This document shows positions 3,201 through 24,114 of a stretch of DNA of 64,000 bases, piece after piece (the first letter of the stretch is position 1; every line of letters begins with the position of its first letter). Below the pieces are notes generated by a model that was given only the letters and a program-made list of their open reading frames with translations, had not been told where the DNA came from and made no database searches. Both the position numbers and the translations under genes were made by a program. Source of the DNA: Nymphaea colorata (lineage: Eukaryota > Streptophyta > Magnoliopsida > Nymphaeales > Nymphaeaceae); NCBI RefSeq assembly GCF_008831285.2, contig NC_045141.1, positions 16,726,106 through 16,790,105 of the forward strand, written 5' to 3'.

Positions 3201-3350
3201 TTTAAGATTGAAGTAGAACGTCACATAATAATCAACAAGGAAAGTAATCACAAGAAAAAATGCAGGACCCTGCGACCAGCATTTCCAATGACCGACCTTC
3301 CATGTGCATCCATAATCCACATGGACTGATCCAAATGTCACGGAGCTCAT
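230..3350 (-). CDS. ArgC: N-acetyl-gamma-glutamyl-phosphate reductase, plastid (5' six exons; gene runs off the left edge)
   Basis: This enzyme reduces N-acetylglutamyl phosphate to the semialdehyde with NADPH, in plastid arginine synthesis. Six exons with GT-AG borders and matching phases can be read: 3297-3350, 3002-3181, 1830-1937, 580-666, 405-455 and 230-301. All boundaries are phase 0, and together they give 184 residues. Residues 1 to about 60 look like a transit peptide (MSSVTFGSVHVDYGCTWK, then rich in S, R and K). The NADP-binding loop VGVLGASGYTGSE follows, then IVRLLANHPNF, LMTADRKAGQS, VDAVFCCLPHGTTQ, KIVDLSA and DFRLRNIDEYEEWYGQPHR, in the order known from plant ArgC. The catalytic Cys motif (NPGCYPT in the family) should lie in the next exon, left of position 1. 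The third intron is long (667-1829), and the second (1938-3001) holds an AC-rich stretch near 2480-2620. The start at 3350 fits the start of the Arabidopsis protein. The gene identity is secure; exon 1 is somewhat less so. Confidence 0.93.
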
Positions 3351-3960
3351 TTCTGCGATTTGCGAGCAGCCCACCTGTGTTTGATGCAGGAAACTCAACT
3401 AAATAAGGACGTCATTTACAACTCTTTCCACCACAGAAATTGATTCACACCGAAGCATAGTTTATCATGGTCACTCAAATTTTCCAGACGATCTCAACCT
3501 TCCGCCACGATTGCAAACCAGCATAGCCAAAAAACCAAACAACTAAAACACGTTTCAGAATCTCAGAATTATACAATTTTCCTATGAATATTAAAGTTCA
3601 TTAACAAAACGAGATTCCTCTCCATTTTCCCCAAGAACACCCAAACCGAACGACAGGCCGATTAATCATTGAATCGAAAGGTGCGAAAAAAAATAACTAC
3701 CTTGCGAATTAGATTCCGCGGTCAGATACGCGCTCCCCTGTCAATCCGGCCAAAATCGGAGCAATTATTCAGAAATCCGAAGTAACAACTGGGACGGAAC
3801 ACAATCCAACGATCGACTTTGAGCTTTTTGATAGGATTAGGGTTAGCGCTTCTACTCGGTTCCACTGTAATGAAGTCTACCAAGTGGAAGACAATATTTC
3901 TTTGTTCTTTTCTGTCGTGGGTTTTTCCCTTTCCCCCGCAACGCAATCTCTTCCCGCTAA
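3351..3960 (-). promoter_or_regulatory. Presumed 5' leader and promoter of ArgC
   Basis: This is the DNA upstream of the ArgC start codon. I see no clear TATA box. The stretch 3780-3900 (GGGACGGAACACAATCC, then a TTTTGATAGGATTAGGGTTAG-like segment) matters because related sequence recurs downstream of U2 copy 1 (about 8850-8955) and in trace form after U2 copy 3. It was therefore duplicated with the snRNA cluster. The promoter role is inferred from position only. Confidence 0.4.
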
Positions 3961-5829: not shown

Positions 5830-6203
5830 GAATTTGCAAGCTGGAGAACAAGATTTGGGCATGGAGTAAAAGAATTTTCAGACAAAATAAAGCACAGGAA
5901 CTGAGCAGCTTGCATTGTGATTTTTCAAGTTAACTGGCATCCGTATCTTTAGTTGAGTCGGTTGTAATTTGGACTTAGACATGAATTTGAATAGAGAAAT
6001 AGTAGAACTGGATCCAAATCCATGTCCATAGTTCCAACTTCAACAATCAAATCTGATGAGGACACCCGTTTTAACGGTTGGATTTGTGAATGCTGCGTGG
6101 ATCAAGTTTTCCTATCGGAAATTGGAAGCCATGCCCGGAAAGAGGGCGTACCCTCCAGTGGTTCAACAGGCAAAAATCCCAAAGGCAACCGCGGAAGAAT
6201 TTA

Positions 6204-6256
6204 GTCCTGTATCGACGAGGAGGTGATATCGACACCCCCAATCGCTTCCTATATTA
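6204..6256 (+). promoter_or_regulatory. U5-1 promoter: USE plus TATA box
   Basis: The USE reads GTCCTGTATCG at 6204-6214 (usual plant form RTCCCACATCG). The TATA-like TATATTA begins at 6250, 35 bp after the USE and 33 bp before the presumed RNA start. This wide spacing is the Pol II arrangement of plant snRNA genes; U6-type Pol III genes have about one helical turn less. Confidence 0.88.
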
Positions 6257-6281
6257 TGAGCGAGGACCAAAAGTGTAACTC

Positions 6282-6412
6282 ACGCAGCCGCGTGGTGAGC
6301 ACAGAGCGAACTATTCTTTCGCCTTTTACTAAAGAATACCGTGTGCTCTCCACTAAAAGCGGCATACGCCTATTTTTGGAGGGTTTCTTCCCTTTGTGGG
6401 GAAAAGCCCTAA
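6282..6412 (+). ncRNA. U5: U5 spliceosomal snRNA, copy 1
   Basis: U5 snRNA holds the exon ends in register during both splicing steps, as the core of the U5 snRNP with PRP8. The invariant loop 1, CGCCUUUUACU, lies inside a hairpin whose arms are ACUAUUCUUU and AAAGAAUACC, closed further out by GUGGUGAGCAC with GUGUGCUCUCCAC. A single-stranded Sm site (AUUUUUGG) follows, then a 3' hairpin (AGGGUUUCUUCCC with GGGGAAAAGCCCU). The 5' end is set by the 33-bp TATA distance and by conservation of ACGCAGCCGCGUG in all four copies. The exact 3' end is approximate. Downstream, ACATTGTTCAATTTAAA is shared with copies 2 and 4 and may be the 3'-end signal. Confidence 0.96.
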
Positions 6413-7816
6413 CATTGTTCAATTTAAATTTCTTATACTTGGCCAAGCGCCTTCTTGGCCTCCAATTTTTATGCTTGCTTTTCTTGTTCGTAAGTTAACC
6501 ATATCAGGTGGGATCGGGCGAAGGAATAAAACTTTAAATACTAGATCCAGATCTGGATGATATTTTGAGGCAGATTTGAGTCCTATATCTGAATGTACGT
6601 ATCGGTGGATTCTCAACAAAGAGTGAGAAATCTGCAATTTATGCAAATAAAATTCTTTAATTTATCAGATTTGTCCCTCTAGGTGTGTTCTTTGGCGTTA
6701 TTTGCAATGTATTAATCACTATGTTCTTGGGCAGAGATAAAATCTTCAAATAAAATATGGTATTTTTGAAAGTAAAATTATATGCCACCTGTTATTTTTA
6801 TTATTATATTTTCATATTTACAAACTAGATGGTGTCAGATAGGGCTGACGACATATGGTATATATGGGTTTTACCTGTAAAACTTGTATAATTATAAACT
6901 AAAAGAAAGTATATGAAAAACGCCAAAGTATATAAAGTAGACATTACGGGCTTCGGGCAAGTTTGGAATCTAAATGATCTCACATGAGAATATACTTATA
7001 GACTACCACCCAGTTTGAGTCCAACATAAAACTATAGCGGATCACGTGTATGTTCATGGCTACATTTTGGTATGGCTGGTCCAAATCCAGACACAAGATT
7101 ATTAAGCCTAACGTGGGATCAAAATCTAGATCTTATGAGAGCTAAGTTGAGCCCTGACCTCAGTATCTATGTGACCTTAGATTTTTATATGCAAGTGAGT
7201 ATAAGACTGTGCGTTTTAAAGAACAAAGAGATAGAAGTTTATATAATACAGATGCAACTGCTTAAAGGTTTTGTTCCAAGTCCATCTCTTTCCTTCTTTT
7301 GACGGAAAAAGAGGATTTGGTCTTGAAAATCTCATAAAAGGTGGGGTTGTATGTAGTCTTGATCTGGGTTTTCAATGGCTGTCAGTTCTAATGCGTACTG
7401 AATTTGAGTCCATTCCTGACCTGGATCCAATCCATTTGCAACTCTATTGAAGTCCTATGGACCAAAATTTCTTATTTACCCGCATTTAACTTTTATTTAT
7501 GCAAAGGAAATGAAATACCAAAATTTCTACAAATATCGTTAGGAAGCATTCAAATGATTGTGGATCTTTGACAAGATTCATGGACATGGGTACTACGGTA
7601 TGGGCCTCATGCTATGGTTTATAGTCATATCTCAGACCCGAAACGTTCAAAATGATTCCTAAGTTGAACTTTTTGGCCATCCCTGGCCCAAATGGGTTGG
7701 GTCCGGTCAGCGAGTTGCCTCCTTTTTGTTGATGTGCTTAGAAAGCCAATTCTGTATCGACTTGAATGCATCAGCTGTCCTTAAATTAGGCGCACGTTAC
7801 TGAACCTTTGTATTAA

Positions 7817-7869
7817 GTCCTGTATCGATGGAAGGAAGATAGTGATGGTTGGTGAGAGGCCTATAAAAG
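7817..7869 (+). promoter_or_regulatory. U2-1 promoter: USE plus TATA box
   Basis: The USE GTCCTGTATCG lies at 7817-7827 and TATAAAAG starts at 7862, 33 bp before the RNA start. The gap between the elements is 34 bp, again Pol II spacing. The flanking word AAGTCCTGTATCGATGGAAG is the same as in U2-2. Confidence 0.9.
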
Positions 7870-7894
7870 AGAGCCAACTGCATCTGTTAAAATC

Positions 7895-8090
7895 ATACCT
7901 TTCTCGGCCTTTTGGCTAAGATCAAGTGTAGTATCTGTTCTTATCAGTTTAATATCTGATACGTGGTCCATGTGACCACACGATATTAAATTAATTTCTT
8001 GTGGGGGAAGTTGGCCACCACCAGTAGCTTGCTACTGGGGCTACTTCGAGCGTCGCCCATGCGTTGCACTACTGCAAGGGCCTGGCGCAC
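7895..8090 (+). ncRNA. U2: U2 spliceosomal snRNA, copy 1
   Basis: U2 snRNA pairs with the intron branch point and with U6 in the spliceosome. The copy is 196 nt, the usual plant length, and starts AUACCUUUCUCGGCCUUUUG. It contains the branch-point pairing sequence GUAGUA and the conserved UCUGUUCUUAUCAGUUUAAUAUCUG region. It also has stem II (ACGUGGUCC/UGACCACACG), an Sm-like site AAUUUCUUGUGG, stem III with the loop AGCUUGC, and stem IV around GCCCAUGCGUUGCAC. No inactivating change is visible. The Sm site carries one C within its U run, seen also in copies 3 and 4. Confidence 0.98.
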
Positions 8091-8139
8091 CCCTACCAAT
8101 TCTTCAATCAAATTTTCATTATCATTAATCTACAATCTA

Positions 8140-8955
8140 CTGCAAACGGTCTCTGAAGATGTTTTACCTTCTTGGCCAGTCGAGGAGTTTGACGGCGAAA
8201 GGGAAACTACTGTGGCCTCCAAAGGGCAGAGCTTGAATTCCGCTTCCCGAATGTTCCTGAAGAGAACGTTTCCGTCCATTTTGCTATTAAACAGAAGAAA
8301 GATTTGAGCATTGAAGTGAAATGTAACAAAATCAAATGAGGAAAGGAATCGCAAGTGCAGGACTCTGAGACAGGCATTTCCAAAGATCAACCTCCCACAC
8401 ATTCATCCAAACGTCACAGAGCTCATACTCTGCAATTTGCGACAGCAGACCTACGTCTGATTGAGGAAAACGCAAACAGACAAGGACAGTTTCTCCAAGT
8501 CTTTCCAACACAGAAATAGATGCAGAATGAAACATAGCTTTTTTTTTTTGGTACATAGAATGAAACATAGCTTTTCGCACTCGAATTTTCCGATCGTCCA
8601 AACCTTCCGCCACGATTGCAAGCTGAAACAGGTAAAGAACCTTTCGAAAGCTCAGAATTGTATTATTTTACCGTGAATTTTAATAAGACGAGGGTTGTTC
8701 CTGTGAGAAACGATTCCTGCACAGACTATAGATAAACGGATACTCTCAAATTAACTGATAGGTAGCTTAGTCACTGCATCGAAAGATAAGAAAATAACTA
8801 TCTTCGCCAATTGGATTACGATTTCAGAGACGCACTTCCCTCCCGAATCGCGCAAAATGAACTTGAGTGTTTTCAGCCTTTTGATAAGGTTAGGGTCGGC
8901 GCATCTAGTCGGTTACACGATAATCAAGTTTAGTGAGTGGCAGACGAGATATAAT
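8140..8955 (-). pseudogene. ArgC 5'-end fragment, copy 1 (broken duplicate)
   Basis: The stretch matches the native ArgC 5' end (about 3045-3880) in the same orientation: part of exon 2 (SSTGQEGKTSSETV against PSTGQESKKSSETV), intron 1, exon 1 and the promoter. Introns are kept, so it is a DNA duplicate, not a retrocopy. Exon 1 starts at 8426 with MSSVTFG and then hits TGA. Exon 2 has lost its reading frame upstream of the matching segment. The match stops just after the SSETV codons, about 50 bp beyond the U2-1 3' end, and all later ArgC exons are missing. It cannot make enzyme. Confidence 0.85.
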
Positions 8956-10354
8956 AACTTTATCCGGGTGCACGAAATGTTTCTCTTACTTTTCTCATCG
9001 AGTAAAGTGAGTAGGAGTATGGACAGCGGTAGCTGGTCAACCATACTACCAGTAGGGGTGAACAATGAGTCGAGCTATGACTCAAGTGAGTTCGAGCTGC
9101 ATCTTATGTTGAACGAGTCAAGCCCGAGTTCACGAGCCGACTCGTTCAACCAATTGAGTCGAGTTCAAGTTTAGTCTTATGAACTCGTTAAAGTTCGACT
9201 CGGCTCGTGATTAAAATACCGGTTCAAAATCGTCTCTAGCGAGAAGCGGGAAATGAAAAGTTTAAACTTTTAGTTTTAGGTTTTGTTTTCGTTCTCCCTC
9301 TCTCCACCTCTCTGTCTCTCATCTGTCGTCGTCTCGAAACTTCTCCCTCCTTCTCTTCTCCGGCAGGCGGCAGCTCTTTTCGTCTTCTCGCTGGTGACCT
9401 TGGTAAAACACTGGCAATTGCGGCAGGTCTGTCCATTTTCTCCTTGTTAGATTTTGTCATTTTAATATGAGTCATTCGCAATTGTGGGGCTTATAGTTTG
9501 TTTGAGCTGATGTTGTTGCTTCTAACTGTGGTTATTTGTGCTTTCGTTTATCTTCCTTATATTTAACTGTATTTTTCACATTGATTTTGTCATTTTTCTA
9601 ATTAATTTCAACATTTAGGTGGTACTCGACTTTTCTTGGTTTTTTTGGTTCTTTCTTTGTGTAGTTGTGTATTTATAGTTGTGAATATCTGGTGTCATTC
9701 AATCGAGTATTCCCTGGAGTTTACTTTCTAAACATTTTGTAGGTTCAGACAACGTCGTTTGTTTGATATATAGCTTTGTGGTTAACAGGAAATTGATGCC
9801 TCATGAAGGTCCAGTGCCTCTGTTTGGCAACAGTTATTTGTCAGTTATGTAGCCTTCCAATTGAATGAGCTGTTCCTGTTTGCATGATTGTCTGTAATAA
9901 GGTCAATTCTAAATGAAATTTGGGAACAAATTTTTGTTCTGGGAATTGAGATTGATTCTATTTGAACATGCTATTCATGCTAGCCGATGATTACTTATGA
10001 TCTTATTATGGGAACATACAGTTTTGCTGACGTTTGTTTTGTAATGAAACTGACTTTTTTGAATAAGCTATCAGCCTATCCCACTTAACGTTCTGTTCCA
10101 CGGTGATCCTTAGCAGATTTTTGGTTTTTTTAAGCATAAATAACAATTCATGCAATTTAGTTTCCTGGATGCAGTTAGTGCTATTGATAAGGAGAACTAT
10201 GTCCCCACAAGCATCGAGGTGATATTCTTTTGATATGCAGTTCTCTGGGAGCTGTTGCATCTAACACTTCTAGCTATTTTGGCTTCAATTAGAATATAGT
10301 TCTCTAAGTGTGATCTTTAACAGTGCTCATGTTGTGTTTAAAATGTATTTTCAG

Positions 10355-10952
<598 letters not shown>

Positions 10953-12170
10953 GTAGACAGGTTACTTTTGCAAGTTTTTTAGTCTCAATTTAAATTCTGA
11001 ACTAGCAAAGTTATTCTGTGTAGGTCTCAATTTATGTTTTTGTGCATCATTGGTTTGTTTTAATTTCTTTTGTTAACCATTTCAGGTTGCATCTTATGAA
11101 TGTACCACACTAACTTGCATTCTGGGTGTGATTATTTTGTTAAGAAAGCTTGCTAACAGCTTAATCTTTCTCATATGACTGTAAGTCTTTTATCTAAGTG
11201 TAAATATTCATCATTAGTTATTGTGGACTTGTTAAATGCTTGTGATTTCCATTATACTAAGTGTACTTCGTCACAACCACAAAGCCATGCAGATAGTTAT
11301 GGATACACAGATGAATCATGGGATTCATTTTTATCTACTTCCTAAAGCAGTGCATGTGTCTGTGTAGAATCATATTCTCCATGGAACCATGGAATCATAG
11401 TAGGTAATGTTGAAGGGGTATATGATGTCCACTGAGCTTTCATGGTTTATTATGTGGTCATTAATTTGACAAAGACTGAAGTCAAAATATTTGTTTTACT
11501 CAAGATTGAGTATCGAGGGGTCAGTATAATACATGAGTCTATTCGGGTAGTCCGTACTGACAATGGAGCTTTATGTGGTTCAATTTAGAACACAATAGCA
11601 TGTCAATGTGGCAATAGGATGTCCGGTTGCTTGGGAAACACTACATTTCATTCATACAGAAGTGTTTCGTTGTCAGACAGAAGTGTTTTCACTGTACACT
11701 TTCATGCACGGAATTCTTGTGTGAACGTGTGAACATGGGCACACAGTTTTCTCACATATAGAATAAAATTTACAACACTTGCTTATGCTTTAGTTTTTGG
11801 ACCTCGAGCTTCTCATGTCTCTTCTACAATCAGATAGGTATCTTCTATGTTTTACAAGCTTAAGGGAATATATATATTATATATATATATATGTATATAT
11901 AATTATTAGAAGAATTATCTTTCATGAATTATGATCTATTACTATTACTGCTTCACTTTAAACTGTCATGGGTGAACATGTCTGATAAAAACATCTGCCA
12001 TTGGCAGCGCATACTTTTCAGCTTGCAATCAAATTTAAGCGTTCGTTAGTTACTGTCGTTTTCACCGGAAATTGACTCTATTCGGTTTCACCTGATATCA
12101 ACATGGCCATGTCCTTTTCCTGTCTTGTATGATGACATTTAAACAGTTATCATTGATATGTTGCTTTCAG

Positions 12171-12315
12171 AAACTGGAGCAGGTTGAAAGAGTGGAGATT
12201 TTGGAGACATCCCTATCAAGAACAAAGCGTTCCTCCTGCTGATGTCCGTAGAGATGATGTCTCCCAAGATGTTTCCGATGGCGAATTATGTATCATCTGC
12301 CTCATGGATGCATGA
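12171..12315 (+). pseudogene. SP1/SPL2-like RING E3 ligase exon fragment (captured)
   Basis: A splice acceptor (TTGCTTTCAG) precedes an open block reading NWSRLKEWRFWRHP, then VSDGELCIICLM, then a stop after two unrelated residues. Plant SP1/SPL2-type ligases of plastid and other organelle membranes end with a basic W/R-rich linker followed by DGELCVVCLMRRRR and a C3HC4 RING. Here the similarity stops exactly after the first two RING cysteines, which looks like a capture breakpoint. No functional RING can form. The assignment rests on a short match, so other MUL1-like RING genes are possible donors. Confidence 0.68.
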
Positions 12316-12462
12316 GATTTATTTAGGGAATGAATATATGTAGCAGCATGTTACTAAAGTAAGATATTTAGTTTCTTGTAGTTCAAATCTCAACGAAAGA
12401 AGATGTCTTAGGACAATGTATTGTTGTTGGTTTGCACTGTTCATTAGAATGTACATCATGCC

Positions 12463-12620
12463 TAAACTAAACGTGTTAAACGAGTTAAATTATGCCTAAA
12501 CGAGCTAAACAAGTTAAATTATGCCTAAACCAGCTAAATGAGTTAAATTACGCCTAAACGAGCTAAACGAGTTAAATGAGACATAACCCTAAACAAGTAA
12601 ATGCCTAAACTAAACGAGTC
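12463..12620. repeat. Subterminal minisatellite of the hAT-like element
   Basis: Imperfect tandem copies of a unit of roughly 28-30 bp built on CCTAAACGAGCTAAACGAG and TTAAATTATG run up to the GAGTCGAGC-rich end of the element. Such subterminal arrays often hold transposase-binding sites in hAT elements; that role is inferred here. Confidence 0.7.
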
Positions 12621-13657
12621 AAGCGAGTCGAGCTTGAGCTCATGTTAGGGAACTCGACTCGAGTTTGAGCTCGAGCTTTTTGAGTCGAGTCGAGCTCGAG
12701 CTGGGCAAGCTCGGGCTCGACTCGGCTCGTGTGCAGCCTTAACTACAAGTCACCTGGCCCGGTATAGAGCAACTAGAACCAGATTTAGGTATGGAGTAAA
12801 AAAGTTTAAGCCAAGACCAAACAGAGATCTGAGTAGATTACTTTGTGATCTTTTAAATTTGGTGGGATTTGGGTCTTTAGTAGAGTCAGTTGTAGTTTGG
12901 ACTTGGACATGATTCAGAATGCAAACGTACTAACACTGGATCCAAATTTGTTCACATTCCTGTCGGCATACAAACGTACCACATGGACCTTCCCCTAGTG
13001 GTTTTAAAAATACAAGATAAAAAGTAGATATGATGGACCGCCTCCTAAGTTTGGAATGTAATTGACCTCACATATTGGAAGCCACAAGAAAGTTTAAGCA
13101 TCATGCATTTTTAGTACCACACCTCGAAATTCCATTGTTTTTTGTCTATCCCCTTTATCATTCTGTGTTGTCCATAAACATGTCATGCTATACAAAAGGA
13201 CACATGGATTTAAAAACCCTGAATTAAGAAGTCCCAACATGTTGTCTCCGGAGGGCTTGTTGGCCGAGTTGGCGTAAAGTTCATCTATCGCAGAAAGGAA
13301 TATTTCAAAAAAGTTATATGATGAAAAGATAAACGCAGAAAGTGTGAGCCAGAGAACATCATAAATCCTGTTAAGATGACGTCAAAGCAGACACTATAAG
13401 GTCCAATACGCACGGGGTTGAGTGCGCTTTCAAAAGTTGTCATATAGATCCTAACAGAGTTGCTGCTGTTATCTCCACTTCAGAATAGCTTCGGCTTTCA
13501 AAAGCAGTGTTACTAAATTATAAGTCTGTAGGAGCTTGTAGATTTAACTGGGTGGCTTAAAGAATGGCTTATACATATGCAGAATCTTCAGTGCTTCAGT
13601 ATTTCTAGTATTGTTTTCCTTGGGTACCCCTTTGGTTAAAAGGCATGCGAAGTGTAT

Positions 13658-14023
13658 CTAATTCACGAGGGCCGATTGATGACGGCCTGATATTTCTTCA
13701 CTGATTTGCTCTATTTTCCCTGTCTCTGCTGCATCATTGACAAATGACAATTCGTCCGTTTCTGTTTTACGCACAGATGATCTAAAAGGCGGCAAACTCC
13801 AATTTGTTTTTGTTCTTTCACTTAGAACATACACTACAGCATATAAATGAGGCATTGGTGATCTTCGAAACGTTCGTTTCTCCTGATAAAATGAATCTGC
13901 TGATGTTTTTCTAAGAAGAACTTTACTACAACTGATGAGGTGAGGACTGCCCGTTTTAATGATTTGATTTCTGTATCCTGAGTCGATCCAAATGTGCACA
14001 TCCCTGCAGAAAATGGAATCCAA
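13658..14023 (-). other. Open frame conserved between cluster units 2 and 3 (copy in unit 2)
   Basis: A 121-codon open frame starts within 150 bp upstream of the U5-2 USE and runs away from it. Its near-identical partner is at 17125-17547 (most residues the same, for example DSGYRNQ, KTGSPHLISCSKVLLRKTSA and EEISGRHQSALVN). I recognise no domain. Because the two DNA copies are themselves very similar, the shared openness need not mean coding. A local 32-bp direct repeat (ATCCAAATGTGCACATCCCT...) near 13988-14045 occurs only in this copy. Confidence 0.25.
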
Positions 14024-14124
14024 ATGTGCACATCCCTGCAGAAAATGGAAGCTATGCAGGAAAAATGACTTTTGCTCAGGGGTTGAAGAAGTAAAGATCT
14101 CAAGGGCAGCCGCGGAAGAATTTA

Positions 14125-14177
14125 GTCCTGTATCGACGAGGAGGTGATGTCGATATCCCCAATCGTTGCCTATATAG
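14125..14177 (+). promoter_or_regulatory. U5-2 promoter: USE plus TATA box
   Basis: The USE GTCCTGTATCG is at 14125-14135 and TATATAG at 14171, with a 35-bp gap and 32-33 bp from TATA to the presumed RNA start. The preceding word CCGCGGAAGAATTTAGTCCT is shared with U5-1. Confidence 0.88.
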
Positions 14178-14202
14178 TGAGCGAGGACCGATAGAGGAAC
14201 TT

Positions 14203-14332
14203 ACGCAGCCGCGTGGTGAGCACAGAGCGAACTATTCTTTCGCCTTTTACTAAAGAATACCGTGTGTTCTCCACTAAAAGCGGCATACGCCTATTTTTGG
14301 GGGGTCTTTTTCCTTTCTGGGTAAAGCCCTAA
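14203..14332 (+). ncRNA. U5: U5 spliceosomal snRNA, copy 2
   Basis: Loop 1 CGCCUUUUACU, the flanking stem arms and the Sm site AUUUUUGG are all intact. The lower stem has GUGUUCUCCAC in place of GUGCUCUCCAC, turning one pair into a G-U wobble. The 3' hairpin is GGGUCUUUUUCC with GGGUAAAGCCC. The post-gene sequence AACATTGTTCAATTTAAA is the same as in copies 1 and 4. Confidence 0.95.
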
Positions 14333-15792
14333 CATTGTTCAATTTAAATTTCTTACACTCGCCCTCTAAGCGAAGTGCCTAGCTCACCTTTTATAGTACG
14401 TAATTCTAGCGTCGTAAGTTGTTATTACCAGGTGAAATTGCGCGTAGCTTTAAAACTTTAAATACTGGATCCAGATCTCGATGATAGTATGGGGCAGACT
14501 TGAAATCTATGTATGGGTGGAATCTCATCAAAGAGTGACAGAAATTTGCAATTTATGCAAATGAAACTCTTTAATTTATTAGGGTATCCTTCTAGGTGTG
14601 TTGGATTTTTTTCTCCTGTTCTTTGGCGTTATTTGCAATGTAACAAACACTATGTTCTTTGGCTGATATAAAATATTCTAATAAAATATGGTATTTTTGC
14701 AAGTAAAATTATATGGCACCTGTTATTTTTATTATTATATTTTTTATACTAACAAAGTAGATGGTGTCAGAAAGGGCTGACGATGTATGGTAATATACCG
14801 GTTTTGCCTGCAAAACTTGTATAATTAGAAACTAAAAGAAAGTATATGAAAGACGTAAGATTAATTGCAATTAAAAATATAAAGATAAAAGTAGACATTA
14901 CGCGGTTCAGGCAAGTTTGGAATCTAAATGACCTCACATGAGAATATACTTTTAGACTGCCCAGTTTGAGTCCAACATAGAGCTACTGCTACAGCGGATC
15001 ACATGCATGTTTCGTGGCTACATTTGGGTAATGGCTGGTCCAAATCCACACACAAGATTATGAACCCTAAGGCCGAACCAAAATCTAGATCTCATGAGCT
15101 AGAGTTGAACCATGACCTCACTATCTATGTGACCCTAGATTTTATATAGAAGTGAGTATAAGACTATGCATTTTAAAGAAAAAAGAGAGAATTTTATACA
15201 ACACGGATGCAACTGCTTAAAAGGCTTTGTTCCAAGTCTATCACTTTTCTTCTTTTGACAGCAAAAGAGGATTTGGTTCTGAAAGTCTAATGGAAGATGG
15301 GGTTGTATGTAGTTTGGATCTAGGTTTTCAATGACCGTCAGTTTCTAATGTGTACTGAATTCAAGTCCAGTCCAACTTCTGATGCATTTTGCTGAACTGG
15401 ATCCAATCCATTTGCAACTCTAATGAAATCCTACGGACCAAAGTTTCTTCTTTACCCACATTCAACTTTTCTTTATGCAAAGGAAAGGAAATATCAAATT
15501 TTCTACAAATATCGTTAGGAAGCATTCAAATGATTGTAGATCTTTGGCATGATTCATGGACATGGGTACTACGGTATGGGCCTCATGCTATGGTTTATAG
15601 TCATATCTCAGACCCGAAACGTTCAAAATGATTCCTAAGTTGAACTTTTTGGCCATCCCTGGCCCAAATGGGTTGGGTCCGGTCAGCGAGTTGCCTCGTT
15701 TTTGTTGATGTGCTTAGAAAGCCAATTCTCTATCGACTTGAATGCATCAGCTGTCCTTAAATTAGGCGCACTTTACTGAACCTTTGTATTAA

Positions 15793-15845
15793 GTCCTGTA
15801 TCGATGGAAGGAAGAAAGCGATGGTTGGTGAGAGGCCTATAAAAG
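15793..15845 (+). promoter_or_regulatory. U2-2 promoter: USE plus TATA box
   Basis: The USE GTCCTGTATCG is at 15793-15803 and TATAAAAG begins at 15838, 33 bp before the RNA start. Sequence and spacing match U2-1. Confidence 0.9.
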
Positions 15846-15870
15846 AGAGCCAACTGCATCTGTTAAAGTC

Positions 15871-16066
15871 ATACCTTTCTCGGCCTTTTGGCTAAGATCA
15901 AGTGTAGTATCTGTTCTTATCAGTTTAATATCTGATACGTGGTCCATGTGACCACACGATATTAAATTAATTTATTGTGGGGGAGGTTGGCCACCACCGG
16001 TAGCTTGCTATCGGGGCCTCCTCGAGCGTCGCCCATGCGTTGCACTACTGCAAGGGCCTGGCGCAC
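15871..16066 (+). ncRNA. U2: U2 spliceosomal snRNA, copy 2
   Basis: This is a 196-nt copy with an intact 5' domain, GUAGUA branch-point sequence and stem II. The Sm region reads AAUUUAUUGUGG, where the other copies have AAUUUCUUGUGG. Stem III is GGAGG...CCUCC outside and CCGGUAGC/GCUAUCGG inside, each paired. Just downstream, CAATACTCAAGTCAAA fits the plant snRNA 3' box pattern CA(N)3-10AGTNNAA, better than at the other U2 copies. Confidence 0.97.
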
Positions 16067-16249
16067 CCCTGCCAATACTCAAGTCAAATTTTCTTTTTAA
16101 GAGAAGCCTGTTTAGATTTGAAAAATTTTGAACTTAGTTACTGTTAATCATTAACTACAGAGAAAATGTAATCGACAATGCACCTCAATCGGCCGACAGA
16201 TCAAAGCGAAATTTCAAGGTAAAGCACCTTAATCTCAATCTTAGAAAAT

Positions 16250-16530
16250 GGATGACCAGTTGCACCGAGGACGCCCGCCGAGTCTCTGAAGATGTTTTTC
16301 CTTCTTGGCCAGTCCTAGGAGTTGGACGCCGATAGGGAAACTACTGTGGCCTCCAAAGAGAAGAGCTTGAATTCCGCTTCCCGATTGTTATCGTTTCCGT
16401 CCATTTTGCTATTAAACAGAAGAAAGATTTGAGCATTGAAGTGAAATGTCACAAAATAATCAAATGAGGAAACGAATCGCAAATGCAGGACTCTCAGACA
16501 GGCATTTCCAAGGATCGACCTTCCAATGTC
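16250..16530 (-). pseudogene. ArgC 5'-end fragment, copy 2 (broken duplicate)
   Basis: The match to native ArgC runs from about 3013 to 3300. It contains the exon 2 region (TTGCACCGAGGACGCCCGCC against TTGCACCGAGCACGCCCACC, then TCTCTGAAGATG...TTCTTGGCCAGTC), intron 1 and the start of the exon 1 side, where the match ends. It reaches further into exon 2 than copy 1 does and lacks the promoter part. It has internal gaps, no start codon and no later exons. Confidence 0.82.
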
Positions 16531-17124
16531 TTATCTCTTTTATCATTATCTTTTGTCCATAAGCATGTATAAAAGCACATGTGTATTTAAAAACCTGAAT
16601 TAAGTCCCAACATGTTGTCTCCGTAGGGCTTGTTGGCCGAGTTGGCCTGAAATTCATCTATCGCAGAAAAGAATGTTTCAAAAAAGTTATATGATGGAAA
16701 TATAGACACACAAAGTGTGAGCCAGAGAACATCATAAATCCTGTTAAGATGACGTTCAAAGCAGACACTATAAGGTCCCCAATGCACACGGGGTTGAGAG
16801 AATGAGAGCGCCTTCAAAAGTTGTCACATAGATCCTAACAGAGTTGCTGCTGTTATCGCCACTTCAGAATAGCTTCGGGTTTCAAAAGCAGTGTTAATGA
16901 ATTATAAGTCTGTAGGAGCTTTAGATTTAACTGGGTGGCTTAAATTAAAGGATGGCTTGTACACATGCAGAATCTTCAGTACTTCAGTACTTGTAGTAGT
17001 GTTTTCCTTGGGTACCCCTTTGGTTAAAAGGCATACGAAGTGTATGACTTTCAAATCAAAAAGGTCTTCTCAAGTAGAGATGTAACGTTCAATGCAACAT
17101 AATGTCGTATAATGCAAGAGCTAT

Positions 17125-17547
17125 CTAATTCACGAGGGCCGATTGATGACGGCCTGATATTTCTTCACTGCTTTGCTCTGTTTTCCCTGTCTCTGCTGCA
17201 TCATTGACAAATGACAATTCGTCTGTTTCTCTTTTACGCACAGATGATCTAAAAGGCGACAAACTCCAATTTGTTTTTGTTCTTTCACTTAGAACATACA
17301 CTACAGCATATAAATGAGGCATTGGTGATCTTCGAAATGTTCGTTTCTCCTGATAAAATGAATCTGCTGATGTTTTTCTAAGAAGAACTTTACTACAACT
17401 GATGAGGTGAGGACTGCCCGTTTTAATGACTTGATTTCTGTATCCTGAGTCGATCCAAATGTACACATCCCTGCAGAAAATGGAAGCTATGCAGGAAAAA
17501 TGACTTTTGCTCAGGGGTTGAAGAAGTAAAGATCTCAAGGGCAGCAA
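17125..17547 (-). other. Open frame conserved between cluster units 2 and 3 (copy in unit 3)
   Basis: A 140-codon frame points away from the U5-3 promoter and starts only 13 bp from its USE. It is nearly identical to the 13658-14023 frame. No domain, transit peptide or membrane segment is evident. It may be a chance frame in a duplicated spacer, or an exon of a transcript diverging from the U5 promoter. Confidence 0.25.
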
Positions 17548-17559
17548 CAGATGAATTTA

Positions 17560-17612
17560 GTCCTGTATCGACGAGGCGGTGTTGTCGATATCCCCAATCG
17601 TTGCCTATATAG
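17560..17612 (+). promoter_or_regulatory. U5-3 promoter: USE plus TATA box
   Basis: The USE GTCCTGTATCG is at 17560-17570 and TATATAG begins at 17606. The 35-bp gap is the same as in U5-1 and U5-2. Confidence 0.87.
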
Positions 17613-17637
17613 TGAGCGAGGACCGATGGAGAAACGT

Positions 17638-17764
17638 ACGCAGCCGCGTGCTGAGCACAGAGCGAACTATTCTTTCGCCTTTTACTAAAGAATACCGTGT
17701 GTTCTCCACTAAAAGCGGCATACGCCTATTTTTGGAGGGTTTTTCCTTATTTTGAAAAACCCCA
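17638..17764 (+). ncRNA. U5: U5 spliceosomal snRNA, copy 3
   Basis: Loop 1, the upper stem and the Sm site AUUUUUGG are intact. The 5' arm reads GUGCUGAGCAC where the others have GUGGUGAGCAC, which costs one lower-stem pair. The 3' hairpin has a different sequence (GGGUUUUUC with GAAAAACCCC) but still folds. The downstream sequence shared by the other three copies (ACATTGTTCAATTTAAA) is absent, so 3'-end formation may differ. Confidence 0.92.
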
Positions 17765-18681
17765 TCATTTATACGTTTAAAATCATTCGTTGTAGATGGT
17801 TATTTCATATCAAGTTTATTTATACTCATAGCTAGTCTCTTTTGTTCGGTTAGGTTCCTTTGTAAGCCTTTCGGTGTTTTCCCTCAAATGTGTCGTGTAC
17901 TCTGTCCTTCCATTGATATGATGATTTAATGATGGAAATAGATGTAATCATTGTAAAGATAAAAGTAGATATTGTGGGCTTCGGGCCCTGGGTTTGAAAT
18001 CTAGAGGACCTCACAATGCTCACATGAGAATTTCCTTCTGACTACTGCGAGCTAGAGTTGAGCCTGGACCTCAGTCTTTGTGGCGACCCTAGATTTTGTA
18101 TGTGAAGTTGAAACTATGAAATTTAAAGGACAAAGAGACAACAAATTTTTACATAATATGGTTCTAACTGCTATGGTTTTGTTCCATTTATTTTCTTCTT
18201 TTGACGGCAAAAGAGAATCTGGTTTCGAAAACCTAATGGAAGCTTGGGTTGTAAGTAGTGTGGATCAAGTTTCGAGGATGCTGTGAATTTCTAGTGTATA
18301 CCGAATCTTCGTCCAGTCCAACTTCTGATTCATTGTGATGTACTGGATCCAATCCATTGACAACCCTAACGAAAGACCAAAATTCGCTCCACCGGAATGC
18401 GTACATGTAACTTTGGTATTTCTACAAATATCGTTAGGAAGCATTTAAATGGATATTGGGATCATGGGTACTACGATGTTGCCCTTATGCCATGGTTTAT
18501 AGTCATATATATCTTAGACCCGAAGCATTCAAAATGCTGCCTAACTTGGCCTAAATGGGGTTGGATCCGGTTAAAGAAACGCACTGTTTTTTGTTGTTCT
18601 AGAGATCCAATTCAAAATCAACTTCAATGCATACAGCCGTCTCAGATTTGTCACTTGTTAGAGATTTCTTTTTTTTTTTTA

Positions 18682-18734
18682 GTCCTGTATCGATGAAACC
18701 AACAAAGTTAAGGGTGGTGGGAGGCCCATAAGAG
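18682..18734 (+). promoter_or_regulatory. U2-3 promoter: USE plus weakened TATA box
   Basis: The USE GTCCTGTATCG is at 18682-18692, directly after a T-run. At the TATA position (18727-18732) the sequence is CATAAG instead of TATAAA, although the 33-bp distance to the RNA start is kept. This promoter may be weaker than those of the other U2 copies. Confidence 0.8.
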
Positions 18735-18759
18735 CAGACTAACCACCTGGGTGAACAGC

Positions 18760-18955
18760 ATACCTTTCTCGGCCTTTTGGCTAAGATCAAGTGTAGTATC
18801 TGTTCTTATCAGTTTAATATCTGATACGTGATCCATGTGATCACACGATATTAAATTAATTTCTTGTGGGGGAAGTTGGCCACCACCAATAGCTTGCTAT
18901 TGGGGCCACTTCGAGAGTCGCCCATGCGTTGCACTGCTGCACGGGCCTGGCGCAC
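18760..18955 (+). ncRNA. U2: U2 spliceosomal snRNA, copy 3
   Basis: This 196-nt copy is the most diverged of the four, yet its changes are paired. In stem II, GUGAUCC/UGAUCAC replaces GUGGUCC/UGACCAC. In stem III, CCAAUAGC/GCUAUUGG replaces CCAGUAGC/GCUACUGG. The branch-point sequence and 5' end are unchanged. One difference (GAGAGUCGCC for GAGCGUCGCC) lies before stem IV. Confidence 0.95.
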
Positions 18956-19044
18956 CCCTACCAACCTCTCAACTCCAAATTTTGTCTTTGCTTATAATTT
19001 CGTTTGCTTTTGTTTTCTAATAATGTTTTCTTCATGCTTTCAAA

Positions 19045-19110
19045 ACAACATAAGGGATGGAACACAATCGGTTTTCAGCGTTTTAACCAGGCTTGGTTAT
19101 ATTTTTCTTA
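19045..19110 (-). repeat. Possible remnant of the ArgC promoter after U2-3
   Basis: GGGATGGAACACAATCG (from about 19054) resembles native GGGACGGAACACAATCC, followed by GTTTTCAGCGTTTTAACCAGG, which resembles GTTTTCAGCCTTTTGATAAGG at about 8868. The match is short and weak, but its place after U2 is the one expected from units 1 and 2. Confidence 0.4.
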
Positions 19111-20280
19111 TGTGATTAGAGTTGGTGTTTTCTTGTAAAATTCTCGATGAATGAAACTCTTTAACAATTTAGTCAAGGTTTCTACAACTCAAACAATCTG
19201 TTCTCTTGCATAACTAATTGTACTTTTTGTGTGTGTTTTGACGGTTGCTCAAGTGAATTTCACAATGACAATTCGTTGAGACATTTTAACAAACTTTTGC
19301 CAAGCAGCAAGCAGTTTTCCTTAGCTGTGATCGCCAGCAGGAGTTTGAGGATGCTCAACTTAGTGGCTTCAAGAGCCTCTAGCTTGAGACCCAATTCGTG
19401 CATGCTCTTCTTCTAGCATTGAAAGGGAGGCATAGAAGCAAAAGCATGGAATTGACTCACAACTCCAACAATTCGTTTCCCGCGGACGGCTGCTGTGGGT
19501 TCCCTGAAAAAGAATGTTCACAGAGAAGAAAAAAGAAATGGCTCCTCACCGTAGGAAAGGGGAAAGCCGGAGATTGTGGAACGATCTATGATCGATGCTC
19601 AGTCAAACTCCTGCGACCCCCCATTCTTTGAGCTCCCGTCCCTCCATGGGAAGCATCAGATCGACGACATACCTCAATGGCCGGACAGTGATTTCCCATG
19701 AGCATCGTATCCTTAGCAGAGAGTTGTGTTCAGTAGCAGATTCATGTAAATTATCTGACCGAATCAACAAGTTACCTGGAGAGCAAATTCGCAGGCAGAA
19801 TGAATTTCGAGATCCTCCTAGCAACAGATGCATATACTTTGCAGCAGTCCTCACCATTTGCAGCTACTGCAACTTTACTATAATTAGCACTCGAGGAAGC
19901 TATGCTGATGTGCACTCTGATTTCCTCACTCCATTTCCACCTGCACCGTTCTATGCCCAGTTGAAGCCAAGGTGCCAGCTTCCATGTCTCGCTACCCGAT
20001 AACTGCATCGATGGGACGAACTCCATGCAGCTAGTCCACACCTTAACAGGGGGAGAAATTCTCTCGTCATTGTGTTTGCAAGTCCAACGGTTAGATGCAT
20101 AAAAGATAACACTTTCACCGCGTATTGAGCATGAATTCCAAGCTTTCACTCACTCCGACTTTGCATAAATCTCCAACTGTTGGACGCCTCCGGCTGCTGC
20201 AAGAACTTGGAAACCATGCATGCAAAGAGGAATTTCCGTTTCCTGTGCCTCGAGTTAGACTTCGTAACGCAAATGGGAGT
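19111..20280. other. Unassigned stretch between U2-3 and U5-4
   Basis: The DNA is less AT-rich than its surroundings, with several overlapping open frames at 19595-20150 on both strands. On the minus strand two blocks (CRWKWSEEIRVHISIASSSA in one frame, HNSLLRIRCSWEITVRPLRY in another) have a coding-like texture but match no family I know. It may be a broken host gene fragment. Confidence 0.35.
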
Positions 20281-20284
20281 TTTA

Positions 20285-20336
20285 GTCCTGTATCGGTGGA
20301 AGAAGTGAATTGATGGCCCACTATCACCTATATAAG
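20285..20336 (+). promoter_or_regulatory. U5-4 promoter: USE plus TATA box
   Basis: The USE GTCCTGTATCG is at 20285-20295 and TATATAAG begins at 20329. The gap is 33 bp, two less than in the other U5 copies. Confidence 0.87.
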
Positions 20337-20362
20337 ACGGCGACGGGACGTTGATGAATTTC

Positions 20363-20491
20363 ACGCAGCCGCGTGGTGAGCACAGAGCGAACTATTCTTT
20401 CGCCTTTTACTAAAGAATACCGTGTGCTCTCCACTAAAAGCGGCATACGCCTATTTTTGGAGGGTCTTTTCCCTTTTGGGGAAAGCCCTAA
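20363..20491 (+). ncRNA. U5: U5 spliceosomal snRNA, copy 4
   Basis: All U5 hallmarks are present: the ACGCAGCCGCGUG start, loop CGCCUUUUACU, paired GUGGUGAGCAC/GUGCUCUCCAC, Sm site AUUUUUGG and 3' hairpin AGGGUCUUUUCCC/GGGGAAAGCCCU. The sequence is almost the same as copy 1. Confidence 0.96.
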
Positions 20492-22479
20492 CATTGTTCA
20501 ATTTAAATTTCTTACTCTCGCCCTAAAAGGAATGTGCCTAGCAATTCTCTCTTAAGGTTTTTAGGCTCCATTTTTTTTCCTTTACTAACTCGTTATTTTA
20601 GCGTCGTAAGTTAGTATTAGCAGGTGGAATTGGGCTTAGCTTTAAAACTTAAATACTAGATCCAGATCTGGATGATAGTATGAGGCAGACTTGAGTCCTA
20701 GATCTGAATCTATGTAAGGGTGGAATCTCATCAAAGAGTGATAGAAGTCTGCAATTTTCTAAAAATAACTCGGTGGAAGGATTGGATTGGACATTTGAAA
20801 GGGATCCAGAAAATCGCCTCAATTGTTCTTGCAGATCCAATTGGATCTCTGTTGGTCTCGAACATGACGAGGCTCCCGGACCTCGCCCAGGACAAATACC
20901 ATGCTGGAGGCTTCAGACTGTTGATGAGATTAAAAAATAAGCCGGATATATGCATTCGATTCGCATGTGCATTCCATTGTCATTTGAGACAGATTCAAAG
21001 GGAGGACGACTTGTCTTGACGGGATATCCATTTGGATCCAAGGAAGTATATCTGCATCCGAAGATGGGAAGGACTACATATATGGTTTAGCGGGAGAATG
21101 GATCCAAGATTGTCACTAAATGTGTGTAACATCTCAAAAATTTGGTGAGAGATCTTCAAGGGCTTATGAAAGAGTCGTTAAAGTAGTTGGGTGTCTTGAT
21201 CCTAACCTTTTACCGCTTGAAACCTCAACTGCAGAGAGTAGGTTTGGATCCATTGGATCAGGGGCGCATGCTCGAGAATAAGTCGGGTCATGGTGTCAGG
21301 TTCAATACTAAAGTTCACAAATACAGTAAAGAGGTAATCATTACAATAAGACTGACAAAAGAAATGCTACTGAGTCAGATTTATCTATCTGGTGACTTAT
21401 TCAAATGCAATCACAGCAGTTCCTTTACAAGAATAAAATGTAGTTGGATGTTGACTAGGTATTAGTTTTCTATTCAAGTTCAGACTCAAACCTAATGTGC
21501 GGTCCAGCTAAACCACAATCCCGATACATACTTGTGAAAGTATCATATTTTTGGCATTCTGTTTTGTTAGAATTGAATATGAGTTGAATACCAACTTCTG
21601 TAAGTCATTGTGATTAAAGATAAGGCTTGAGAAAGTGATAGATCCAATCCATTTAGAGGAAAGGTGTTCATTGACCCTACCTTTTCAAGCTTGCAGCTTG
21701 TCTCAATAGAAATTTAGATCGCAGAGATGGATCCAACGCAGACCACTTGGTAAACACAGAAGCTATTGTAAATCTGATCTACCACCATTATTTTCAATTT
21801 TCGAATGTACTTTAGTTTTAAATACTCAACCGTGTTCTTGGTATCAAAGATACAATTCGACAGTGAAGATCGATGGTATTAAAGACATTACTGCACAGGC
21901 ATCGGGGTATCCCCTACCAAATTTTAATCTAAATTTGTTTGTTTAATTTTATTGGTTGAGCAGTAAAGATGGAATATGGAACCAGCTGAATTCGGATTTC
22001 TGGTTGCCGTTTATTCATCTTACCATGCCCGTATAAATCGGTACAGCTTCATCATTCTCGTGGTCTTGGCTAGAACTTGACAGAAAGGAGAGGAACTAGA
22101 TTGAAGATTCATACTTACAATCCTGATATTGATACTATCAAGTTGATAACTTCTCCAGTTTCTGTAAATAAACGGCATCATCTTCCCGTTGCTTAAATTG
22201 AGCACAGTTGATGTTCCCCTGTTCTAAGGCTGTATAATCGTTGTATTTTTTCTTGATTCATCGATTGATAAAGGACAGGGAGCCATATCCCAGAAGACTT
22301 GCTGTAGTGCTTCACATCCTTTATAAGTCTGTCAAGATTCTTTGTAATTTTACATACGAAATTAAACCTTACACTTATATTAGAATCGGTACAGCTACTT
22401 CAAAATCTTGTAACAAAACATATCTCAAACCGTTTAATGGGACTCTCTGGGAGAAGGAAGAATGCCCACTGTTAATTTA

Positions 22480-22645
22480 TCCGGTGTCTGACTGTTTTTC
22501 GCAAGTTCAACCACATAAACATGATCGTATTGAGAAGTTCAAGACTCTATACTTCAAGATGAAAGACCCAGAAAGCCAATATTTAAACTGGATTTTAAGA
22601 CAAGATCAACTTCAGACCACTAATTTTTTGGTGGACTTGTAAATT
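22480..22645 (+). repeat. Dispersed repeat pair, member A
   Basis: The segment around CTGTTTTTCGCAAGTTCAAC and GAGAAGTTCAAGACTCTATA is related to 24120-24270. Translated in one frame, both give a similar run (EKFKTLYFKMKDPESQYLNW here, EKFKTIYFQIKNPEIQYLSR there). Flanking sequence (21840-22000 against 23690-23850) is also weakly related, so the whole block was duplicated. The type of repeat is unknown. Confidence 0.5.
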
Positions 22646-23177
22646 CCGAGCTACTAAAAAAAAAAAAAAAGATTTGAAGATATTAAAATCCAAACTAAGC
22701 TGTATGCGTAAATCCAATCAAGTTTATAGTACACAACTGTAGCAGTAATAAGGAATTTCAAAATGACAGAGAAATACAAGTTTATGTATATTGTTCCATT
22801 GTGATTTTGCTGTTTGAAGTCCGGCCCAACCCGTAACGAGTTTTTCTGGGCTGGATCCAATCCATTTGCAACTCTAACGAGAGCCGATATTCTACAAGTC
22901 CTTCTCTATCCGAAAACGTATGCTTAACTTTGGCCTACTCAAAGGAAATCGTATATCATTTTTTCTATGGATATTGTTAGCACAAAGTTTCACGGACATG
23001 TGCCTTGGTTTATGGTCACATGTTGGGGACAAAGCGTTCAGAACGGTCCCCGATCTGAAATTTTGGCCATCTTGGCTCAAATGAGTTGGATCTACTTAGA
23101 AATTTGAGTGCTTTCTTTTCCGGACCCGACTTAAATGTTCTCAGCTGTCCCAGATCATGGCAGACCCTTTTTTTTTA

Positions 23178-23231
23178 GTCCTGTATCGATGGAAGGGAAG
23201 AAAGTGAAGGGTGGTGGGAGGCTTATAAAAG
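23178..23231 (+). promoter_or_regulatory. U2-4 promoter: USE plus TATA box
   Basis: The USE GTCCTGTATCG is at 23178-23188 after a T-run. TATAAAAGG begins at 23224, 33 bp before the RNA start. Confidence 0.9.
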
Positions 23232-23256
23232 GAAACCAACTACCACAGCTAAAATC

Positions 23257-23452
23257 ATACCTTTCTCGGCCTTTTGGCTAAGATCAAGTGTAGTATCTGT
23301 TCTTATCAGTTTAATATCTGATACGTGGTCCATGTGACCACACGATATTAAATTAATTTCTTGTGGGGGAGGTTGGCCGCCACCGGTAGCTTGCTACCGG
23401 GGCCTCCTCGAGCGTCGCCCATGCGTTGCACTACAGCACGGGCCTGGCGCAC
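23257..23452 (+). ncRNA. U2: U2 spliceosomal snRNA, copy 4
   Basis: A full 196-nt copy. Stem III is fully Watson-Crick (CCGGUAGC/GCUACCGG inside, GGAGG/CCUCC outside). GUAGUA, stem II and the Sm-like site AAUUUCUUGUGG are as in copy 1. It has CUACAGCACGGGC near the 3' end where copies 1 and 2 have CUACUGCAAGGGC. Confidence 0.98.
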
Positions 23453-24114
23453 CCCTACCAATTCTTAATTAAAATTTTTTTGTTATCTAATTATTATTTC
23501 TTTGATTAAACTTGCCTTGCCGTTGTGTATGTGTTCTAAATATTGTATGTGAGGTCGGTCCTACACCTCTCTAAATTATGAAAAACGCGATTTCTGTTGC
23601 TTTTATTTATTCAAATTCTCAATCATTAAAGAAATATGATATACCACCATTATTTTTCCCTAAATTGTAAACCCATAGGTAAATTGTGTTTCATTTCTAA
23701 ATAATTAAGTTGTTGGTATTAAAGATATAATAGAATGGTGGAGATTGAAGTATTAAAGATAATATTTATTATCAAACGGGGTTTGCCTGCCACTACCAAG
23801 TTTCATCAAAATTATGTAAATTTTGTGTCCAGTTTCTTGGTTGAGTAGCAAACGTTTTGGATCCTGAACTGAATCCAAATTTCTGATTTCACCCCCATAT
23901 TGGGTTTGAATGTTTTTCATCCTAGACCATTTGTTTAGCTTACTCTGCCGCATCAATCGGTGCAGCTACTTCCAGCTCGTATCAAGTCTGAAGATGCTTG
24001 AATTCATTTAGTAGGACTCGGTGGCCGAACTGGGTTGAGGCTAACAAGCCCGACCTCGATTCAGATTTGGGTGTTGATGTTAGGAACTAAACCGGATGGA
24101 AGAATGCACGCCAT

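Follow-up and report, generated by a model that had tools for sequence, protein, structure and literature searches.

An alternating array of four U5 and four U2 snRNA genes in the water lily Nymphaea colorata, probably grown by duplication of a gene pair

Results and Discussion

Four U5 and four U2 snRNA genes follow each other in strict alternation within a 64,000-nucleotide stretch of the Nymphaea colorata genome (contig NC_045141.1; the whole stretch analysed is called the window below). To judge from the sequence, these are very probably ordinary plant polymerase II snRNA genes, most likely working, in an array shaped by birth and death of its units. The genes, their order, two duplication junctions and the mosaic structure of the units can be read directly from the DNA.

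Content and order of the array

The window was scanned with Rfam models at gathering thresholds, and all eight genes gave full-length matches, with 154.7-161.6 bits for U2 (RF00004, gathering score 46) and 84.8-91.8 bits for U5 (RF00020, gathering score 40). Such full-length scores rule out chance matches, and with all eight well above the gathering scores, the covariance models bear out the U2/U5 identity on which the original prediction had been made to depend. In array order (U5, U2, U5, U2, U5, U2, U5, U2) and all on the + strand, as had been predicted for eight complete genes, they are U5A (6286-6404, 91.8 bits; this is the end of the model match, and the 3' stem-loop extends a few bases beyond), U2A (7895-8095, 161.6 bits), U5B (14207-14318, 84.8 bits), U2B (15871-16071, 157.2 bits), U5C (17642-17760, 87.9 bits), U2C (18760-18960, 154.7 bits), U5D (20367-20485, 91.5 bits) and U2D (23257-23457, 158.4 bits). 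The boundaries first given for the array, 6204-23452, have to be corrected to 6286-23457, because position 6204 falls inside the upstream element of U5A and the last gene ends at 23457. The seven spacers measure 1490, 6111, 1552, 1570, 999, 1406 and 2771 bp.

No ninth snRNA gene was found by a permissive Rfam scan of positions 1-40000 or by the scan of 40001-64000 at gathering thresholds; the seven other matches of the permissive scan all lay below their own gathering scores. Genes for U1, U4 and U6 were absent from the window at gathering thresholds. Seven of ten translated pieces from the window had no Pfam match. A Dof gene neighbours the array and is closest to Nymphaea.

Outside the window, the U2 core had no matches in viral contigs and three in genome contigs, all of them filed under prokaryote bins. 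The U2 on all three is of the eukaryote type (two are cut by the end of the stretch examined), and one contig also carries U1, 5S rRNA and three histone stem-loops. For U5, nothing in the examined stretches of these contigs (1838 of 9838 bases in the third) scored at the gathering level. We took the three as contamination and left them out.

Promoter elements

A 12-mer, AGTCCTGTATCG, is shared by the upstream regions and starts at -79/-80 in the U2 genes and at -83 in the U5 genes; GTCCTGTATCG is common to all eight promoters and is three transitions away from the published plant USE. Compared with that USE (RTCCCACATCG, near -70), the shared element matches at 8 of 11 positions and differs at three, a match of at least 8/11 being found also in about 5% of random 41-base windows. 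It is convincing as a USE-like element because two unrelated gene families carry it unchanged and almost equally far upstream. The elements lie, all on the + strand, at 6202-6214 (U5A, TAGTCCTGTATCG), 7815-7827 (U2A), 14123-14135 (U5B), 15791-15803 (U2B), 17558-17570 (U5C), 18680-18692 (U2C), 20283-20295 (U5D) and 23176-23188 (U2D); the first base of the 13-mer differs in U2A and U2B, which both read AAGTCCTGTATCG.

TATA-like boxes, expected near -30, are present at -33 to -38 in all eight genes, that of U2C being poor (CCATAAGAG). They are separated from the USE-like element by 33-35 bp in six genes (computed by script) and by 34 bp in U2A and U2B (worked out manually from the coordinates), a distance that fits polymerase II snRNA genes, in which USE and TATA box are described as four helical turns apart (PMC9845283). 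A 3' box, CA(N)3-10AGTNNAA, was found with no or one mismatch behind every gene, and 21% of random windows were equally good. The original prediction had given each gene its own USE and TATA box; the TATA-like box and a shared upstream element indeed accompany all eight, and what needs amending is the element itself, a variant and not the published USE. It is conceivable, though rather unlikely, that in water lilies the USE core of Arabidopsis and spruce (TCCCACAT...) has moved to TCCTGTATCG, with the DNA-binding complex SNAPc changed to match and this array a main source of U2 and U5 RNA. A uniform variant in eight promoters is a direct test case for the flexibility of the plant snRNA promoter code.

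Conservation of the RNAs

In keeping with constraint on the genes, the U2 bodies are 93.5-97.0% identical among copies and the first 92 nt of U5 97.8-100%, and the flanks of the more distant units are 52-82% identical or unalignable. The branch-site pairing motif GTAGTA is intact in all four U2 genes, as is the loop 1 motif CGCCTTTTAC in all four U5 genes. The Sm-like site of U2 reads AATTTCTTG or AATTTATTG, without an unbroken run of T. Among 42 U2 stem pairs, four are changed on both sides, and 98.2% of cells are paired; the covariation score was reached by 2 of 500 shuffles, the support coming from four sequences only, and as many two-sided pair changes arose in 39 of 500 and as many pair types in 383 of 500. 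The changes at these four pairs suggest that the RNAs have been maintained. Individual copies show further differences: U2C has a change on both sides at columns 72-82 and a broken pair at 157-193, U2B and U2D share a T-T mismatch at 117-149, and U5C has lost one stem pair in the alignment and has a replaced 3' stem-loop sequence for which folds still predict pairing, the rebuilt hairpin being another sign of constraint.

Unit junctions and growth of the array

On the - strand before the array, an open frame at 2930-3184 contains sequence like the first exon of ARGC (N-acetyl-gamma-glutamyl-phosphate reductase). Part of it, joined to part of the - strand frame at 1692-2042, matches the argC model TIGR01850 (E 2.3e-14); taken singly, the two frames gave no Pfam match. 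This region is the source of pieces found at two unit junctions: a copy of 3044-3897, comprising exon 1 and upstream sequence, lies behind U2A at 8145-8950 (+; 72.6% identity over 427 bp and 76% over 80 bp, and 66% over 760 bp when scored permissively), and a copy of 2981-3302 lies behind U2B at 16221-16525 (+; 72.3% over 329 bp). Since two of the four U2 copies are followed by pieces of the start of ARGC, equally oriented each time, the array probably grew by head-to-tail duplication. For candidate pieces behind U2C and U2D, 8, 19 and 62 of 100 shuffles were as good, and the junction between units C and D (8 and 19 of 100) has no convincing ARGC piece. A weak nhmmer match to the ARGC piece was seen at 19039-19096 (E 0.019).

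The units themselves are collinear, A and B being 84.9% identical over 2082 bp, and B and C 91% over 682 bp and 73% over 1024 bp. The block upstream of U5 in unit B (13143-14206, +) is a near copy of that of unit C (16527-17641; 87% over 532 bp, 91% over 682 bp), with 90-99% identity in eight of nine 150-column windows from the start of the block to U5; when the B-type block was compared with the interval between C and D, 1 of 100 shuffles was as good. In unit D, both ends of the spacer of A, B and C are recognisable by nhmmer (E 9e-48 and 2e-55). As both lie between U5D and U2D, we dropped the idea that these two genes are not an original pair.

Recombination between units and relics of lost sequence

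Unit B is a mosaic, C-like to the left of U5 and A-like to the right, with the switch at the 3' end of the U5B gene (14308-14310); across 376 informative sites, none of 2000 permutations gave a switch as strong. U2B carries D-like variants in its 3' half (U2 body against flank, Fisher p 5e-6). Between A and B, the 400 bp upstream of U2 contain 13 differences and the 201 bp of the U2 bodies nine, and we put this greater likeness upstream than within the genes down to conversion.

One further unit, X, has probably been deleted. A relic of sequence upstream of U5 remains at 12775-12947 (+; 74.9% over 175 bp with 5845-6019), scoring 121 bits where 100 shuffles reached at most 31. A probable relic of its U5-U2 spacer lies at 13004-13073 (+; 76% over 71 bp with 14871-14939), with 46.8 bits, where the best of 100 shuffles reached 26.8, and a weak nhmmer match (E 0.068). 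A possible relic of a U2 3' end is found in the spacer between U5D and U2D (21886-21943, +; 77.6% over 58 bp, E 3e-6), for which none of 100 shuffles was as good but the nhmmer E value is 0.019. The sequence around this candidate shares 64% identity over 263 bp with a stretch near 23.75 kb. No second relic of a U2 3' end is claimed for that stretch, because 7 of 100 shuffles were as good against U2D.

Origin of the array and alternative explanations

We infer the following order of events. A U5 gene adjoining a U2 gene beside the ARGC gene would have been the founder, and the DNA reaching roughly from where ARGC exon 1 ends to a point shortly past U2 would have been duplicated head to tail more than once. 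Unequal crossing-over at the U5 genes and gene conversion in U2 would then have reshuffled the units, and one further unit would probably have been deleted. Each gene would be a transcription unit of its own, served by its USE-like element and TATA box, and the RNAs would function as ordinary snRNAs. Strict alternation would be a by-product of the copying of pairs.

The original prediction had pointed out that duplicating the two genes as a pair would keep dosage balanced. Selection for equal copy number, holding U5 and U2 together, is compatible with birth and death of units, the eight surviving genes do alternate strictly, and U2-U5 linkage recurs in fishes and Drosophila (PMC3464664) and in Arabidopsis (PMC545797). 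As a selected arrangement it is nevertheless unlikely: each gene has separate promoter elements, the unit boundary lies inside an unrelated gene, one unit was apparently deleted, and in Arabidopsis the copy numbers of U2 and U5 are unequal (18 and 14; PMC545797). The window also lacks U1, U4 and U6, which are required in equal amount. Duplication of a pair is enough to produce the alternation without selection, and dosage balance is rejected as an established cause; it may help to keep the alternation and is unnecessary for explaining it.

It is quite improbable that most of the array consists of decaying pseudogenes with one or two live pairs. The poor TATA box and broken pair of U2C, the stem pair lost in U5C, the probable loss of unit X and the variant USE could be taken as signs of decay, but all eight genes retain their bodies and the common promoter element while the flanks of distant units have diverged, and stem pairs are changed on both sides even in U2C. 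An assembly artefact (haplotigs or false duplication), for which tandem repeats are a usual place and which had been named as an objection, is highly improbable, since the flanks range between copies from 99% identical to unalignable (gene bodies 93.5-100%), spacers are unequal, and each copy has many differences from the others as well as a mosaic relation to them.

Comparison with known U2-U5 linkages

Whether such a paired array had been described was left open at the outset. Among the matches listed in the open-licence literature we found no four-pair U5-U2 array in a plant, but an alternating U2-U5 cluster is known in the fish Plectorhinchus mediterraneus, with U2-U5 linkage also in Drosophila and several further fishes (PMC3464664), and a single pair in Arabidopsis (PMC545797). 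As in Plectorhinchus, U2 and U5 are linked and alternate, and every gene comes with a promoter element and a 3' box, which in Nymphaea are a USE-like element and a candidate box. Spacers in the fish vary little and measure only 533-570 and 168-178 bp (PMC3464664), whereas the four pairs seen in Nymphaea have diverged spacers of 1.0-6.1 kb. The array shares with the fish type the alternation on one strand, but not homogenised units with short, regular spacers (spacers 999-6111 bp; windows 52-99% identical where alignable).

Arabidopsis is likewise a plant, with USE and TATA promoters where Nymphaea has USE-like and TATA-like elements, and its seven U1-U4 pairs represent a pair of two kinds of snRNA genes in several copies (PMC545797). 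Its one U2-U5 pair (U2-17/U5-10) is less than 200 nt apart, in contrast to the fourfold pair of Nymphaea at 1.0-2.8 kb. In Euglena, the linked U3-U5 genes are also a pair of small RNA genes multiplied by duplication, with families defined by the spacer, but the pairs are described as convergent, and PCR found no tandem arrangement (PMC2784804). With the Nymphaea array, an early-diverging flowering plant joins the scattered known cases of U2-U5 linkage, and the growth of a mixed snRNA array can be followed in its junctions, crossover at a gene, conversion patch and probably lost unit.

Four tandem U5-U2 gene pairs

The Rfam covariance models, run over the whole 64 kb, identified eight full-length spliceosomal RNA genes, all on the plus strand, forming four units (A to D): U5A (6286-6404) and U2A (7895-8095), U5B (14207-14318) and U2B (15871-16071), U5C (17642-17760) and U2C (18760-18960), and U5D (20367-20485) and U2D (23257-23457). 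The original prediction, an alternating U5/U2 cluster, was correct in the kind, number, order and strand of the genes. At gathering thresholds, no other Rfam family was found in the 64 kb, and a permissive Rfam scan of 1-40000 yielded no additional snRNA gene.

Promoter elements and the 3' box

All eight genes share AGTCCTGTATCG, at -79 or -80 in U2 and at -83 in U5, and have TATA-like boxes at -33 to -38. Six genes have 33-35 bp between the two (by script); in U2A and U2B, whose upstream elements start with AA, not TA, the distance is 34 bp (by hand). The plant upstream sequence element (USE) is published as RTCCCACATCG (PMC9845283, PMC8551722), is given with one C fewer in PMC545797, and a spruce U6 element is listed as TCCCACATGC (PMC8551722). 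Three transitions separate the array element, GTCCTGTATCG (eight sites, 6202-23188), from the published plant USE. Taken alone, the resemblance between the two is weak (about 5% of random windows match equally well), but the occurrence of one identical element in two unrelated gene families at nearly the same position is not due to chance. Species-specific USEs derived by motif search are presented in a review, implying differences among lineages (PMC12133305); no paper combining Nymphaea, snRNA and the upstream sequence element was found in an open-licence library. The 3' box consensus, CA(N)3-10AGTNNAA (PMC5079582), was matched with 0-1 mismatch in all eight genes, a weak criterion because 21% of random windows do likewise.

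Origin by duplication and recombination between units

In a self-comparison, units A and B are collinear (84.9% over 2082 bp), and B and C match at 91% over a 682 bp stretch comprising U5 and its upstream sequence, and at 73% over 1024 bp around U2. Copies of 2981-3897, the start of a minus-strand gene left of the array, occur 3' of U2A (72.6% identical to the source over 427 bp, beginning 50 bases past the gene) and U2B (72.3% over 329 bp, beginning 150 bases past). Most likely, the source gene encodes the plant N-acetyl-gamma-glutamyl-phosphate reductase (ARGC), because joined pieces of two of its open frames match the argC family (TIGR01850, E 2.3e-14; a partial match under the curated full-length cut-off, with frames joined by eye). 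The ARGC pieces indicate that the array grew by head-to-tail copying of a unit with one boundary near the end of ARGC exon 1 and the other shortly past U2. No convincing ARGC piece was found 3' of U2C or U2D (a weak nhmmer match lies at 19039-19096).

It is possible that the alternation has been kept for dosage balance, as the original prediction proposed, but copying of a neighbouring pair would produce alternation regardless, each snRNA gene has its own promoter elements, and in Arabidopsis the numbers are reported as unequal (18 U2 vs 14 U5; PMC545797).

The U2A-U5B interval (6.1 kb) holds an ARGC piece (8145-8950), a piece from upstream of U5 (12775-12947; 121 bits vs a maximum of 31 in 100 shuffles) and probably a U5-U2 spacer piece (13004-13073; 46.8 bits vs a maximum of 27 in 100 shuffles, weak by nhmmer); because these pieces sit there, a fifth unit probably once lay between U2A and U5B, both its genes since lost. 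Unit D retains both spacer ends (E 9e-48 and 2e-55), with about 2 kb of other sequence between them. Two pairs of diverged direct repeats flank U2D (21770-22005/23632-23888, 64%; 22453-22626/24095-24268, 77%), and the first copy of the 64% pair includes 58 bp resembling the U2 3' end.

Left of U5, B is 90-99% identical to C in 8 of 9 windows (150 columns each), and most of it cannot be aligned with A. To the right of U5, the identity of B to A is 84-99% (71% in the first window), and B is distant from C (52-80%). The 376 sites at which B sides with either A or C place the best switch point at 14308-14310, the 3' end of U5B (0/2000 permutations as strong). Upstream of U2, 103 sites group A with B vs 4 grouping B with D, whereas inside the U2 gene 6 group B with D vs 3 A with B (Fisher p 5e-6). 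The nine A-B differences in U2 all lie in its 3' half, and the 13 differences in the 400 bp upstream are fewer than predicted from that half (9 in 101); this pattern is opposite to that of constraint and speaks against live genes, but we ascribe it to conversion. The mosaic of unit B is explained by a crossover at U5 together with gene conversion of a patch of U2, the conversion donor possibly coming from elsewhere in the genome.

Signs for and against live genes

Signs of gene activity were sought in four sequences of each kind, from the DNA sequence alone. In favour of live genes, the U2 bodies (93.5-97.0% identical) and nucleotides 1-92 of U5 (97.8-100%) are far more conserved than the flanks of distant units; all four U2 copies have an intact branch-site pairing motif, and all four U5 copies an intact loop 1. 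Among 42 U2 stem pairs (defined by a structure string that we assembled from the Rfam line and visual inspection), in which 98.2% of stem cells are paired, four show both-sided changes (72-82, 115-151, 129-142 and 130-141, the last with a G-U intermediate). The covariation score was reached by 2/500 shuffles, the number of pairs with both-sided changes by 39/500, and the number of pair types by 383/500. The U5C 3' hairpin has a different sequence with pairing still predicted. Against live genes, one stem pair of U2C is disrupted and its TATA box is poor, U5C has lost one pair, U2B and U2D have a T-T mismatch at 117-149, and the U2 Sm-like run is interrupted.

Other features of the window

A Dof gene lies at about 38.9-40.1 kb; its closest relative among the best 120 of 4926 matches (8000 candidates scored) was from Nymphaea thermarum (93% of the query aligned at 95% identity), followed by Victoria cruziana (81%). 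By this single gene, the window comes from Nymphaea or a very near relation. On the minus strand at 53987-58370, open frames resembling a Copia-type retroelement are bounded by direct repeats (about 350-370 bp long, 84% identical) that may be its LTRs. Pfam identifies multicopper oxidase exons (Cu-oxidase, Cu-oxidase_3) and, scoring under its cut-off, a weak protein kinase piece among 46370-46744, 47191-47577 and 59157-59441 (all minus strand).

Comparison with known snRNA linkages

One contig assigned to a bacterial bin (L001, 118-4586) carries U2, U1, 5S rRNA and three histone stem-loops; this mixed histone/5S/snRNA cluster evidently reached the bin through eukaryotic contamination. No plant array as large as that of Nymphaea was found among the matches listed from an open-licence library. 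Arabidopsis is described as having seven U1-U4 pairs and a single U2-U5 pair, whose genes lie less than 200 nt apart (PMC545797), and Euglena many U3-U5 pairs (PMC2784804). An alternating U2-U5 cluster is reported in Plectorhinchus mediterraneus, in a paper that also cites U2-U5 linkage for several further fishes and Drosophila (PMC3464664). U2-U5 linkage is already known, and the Nymphaea array adds another case.
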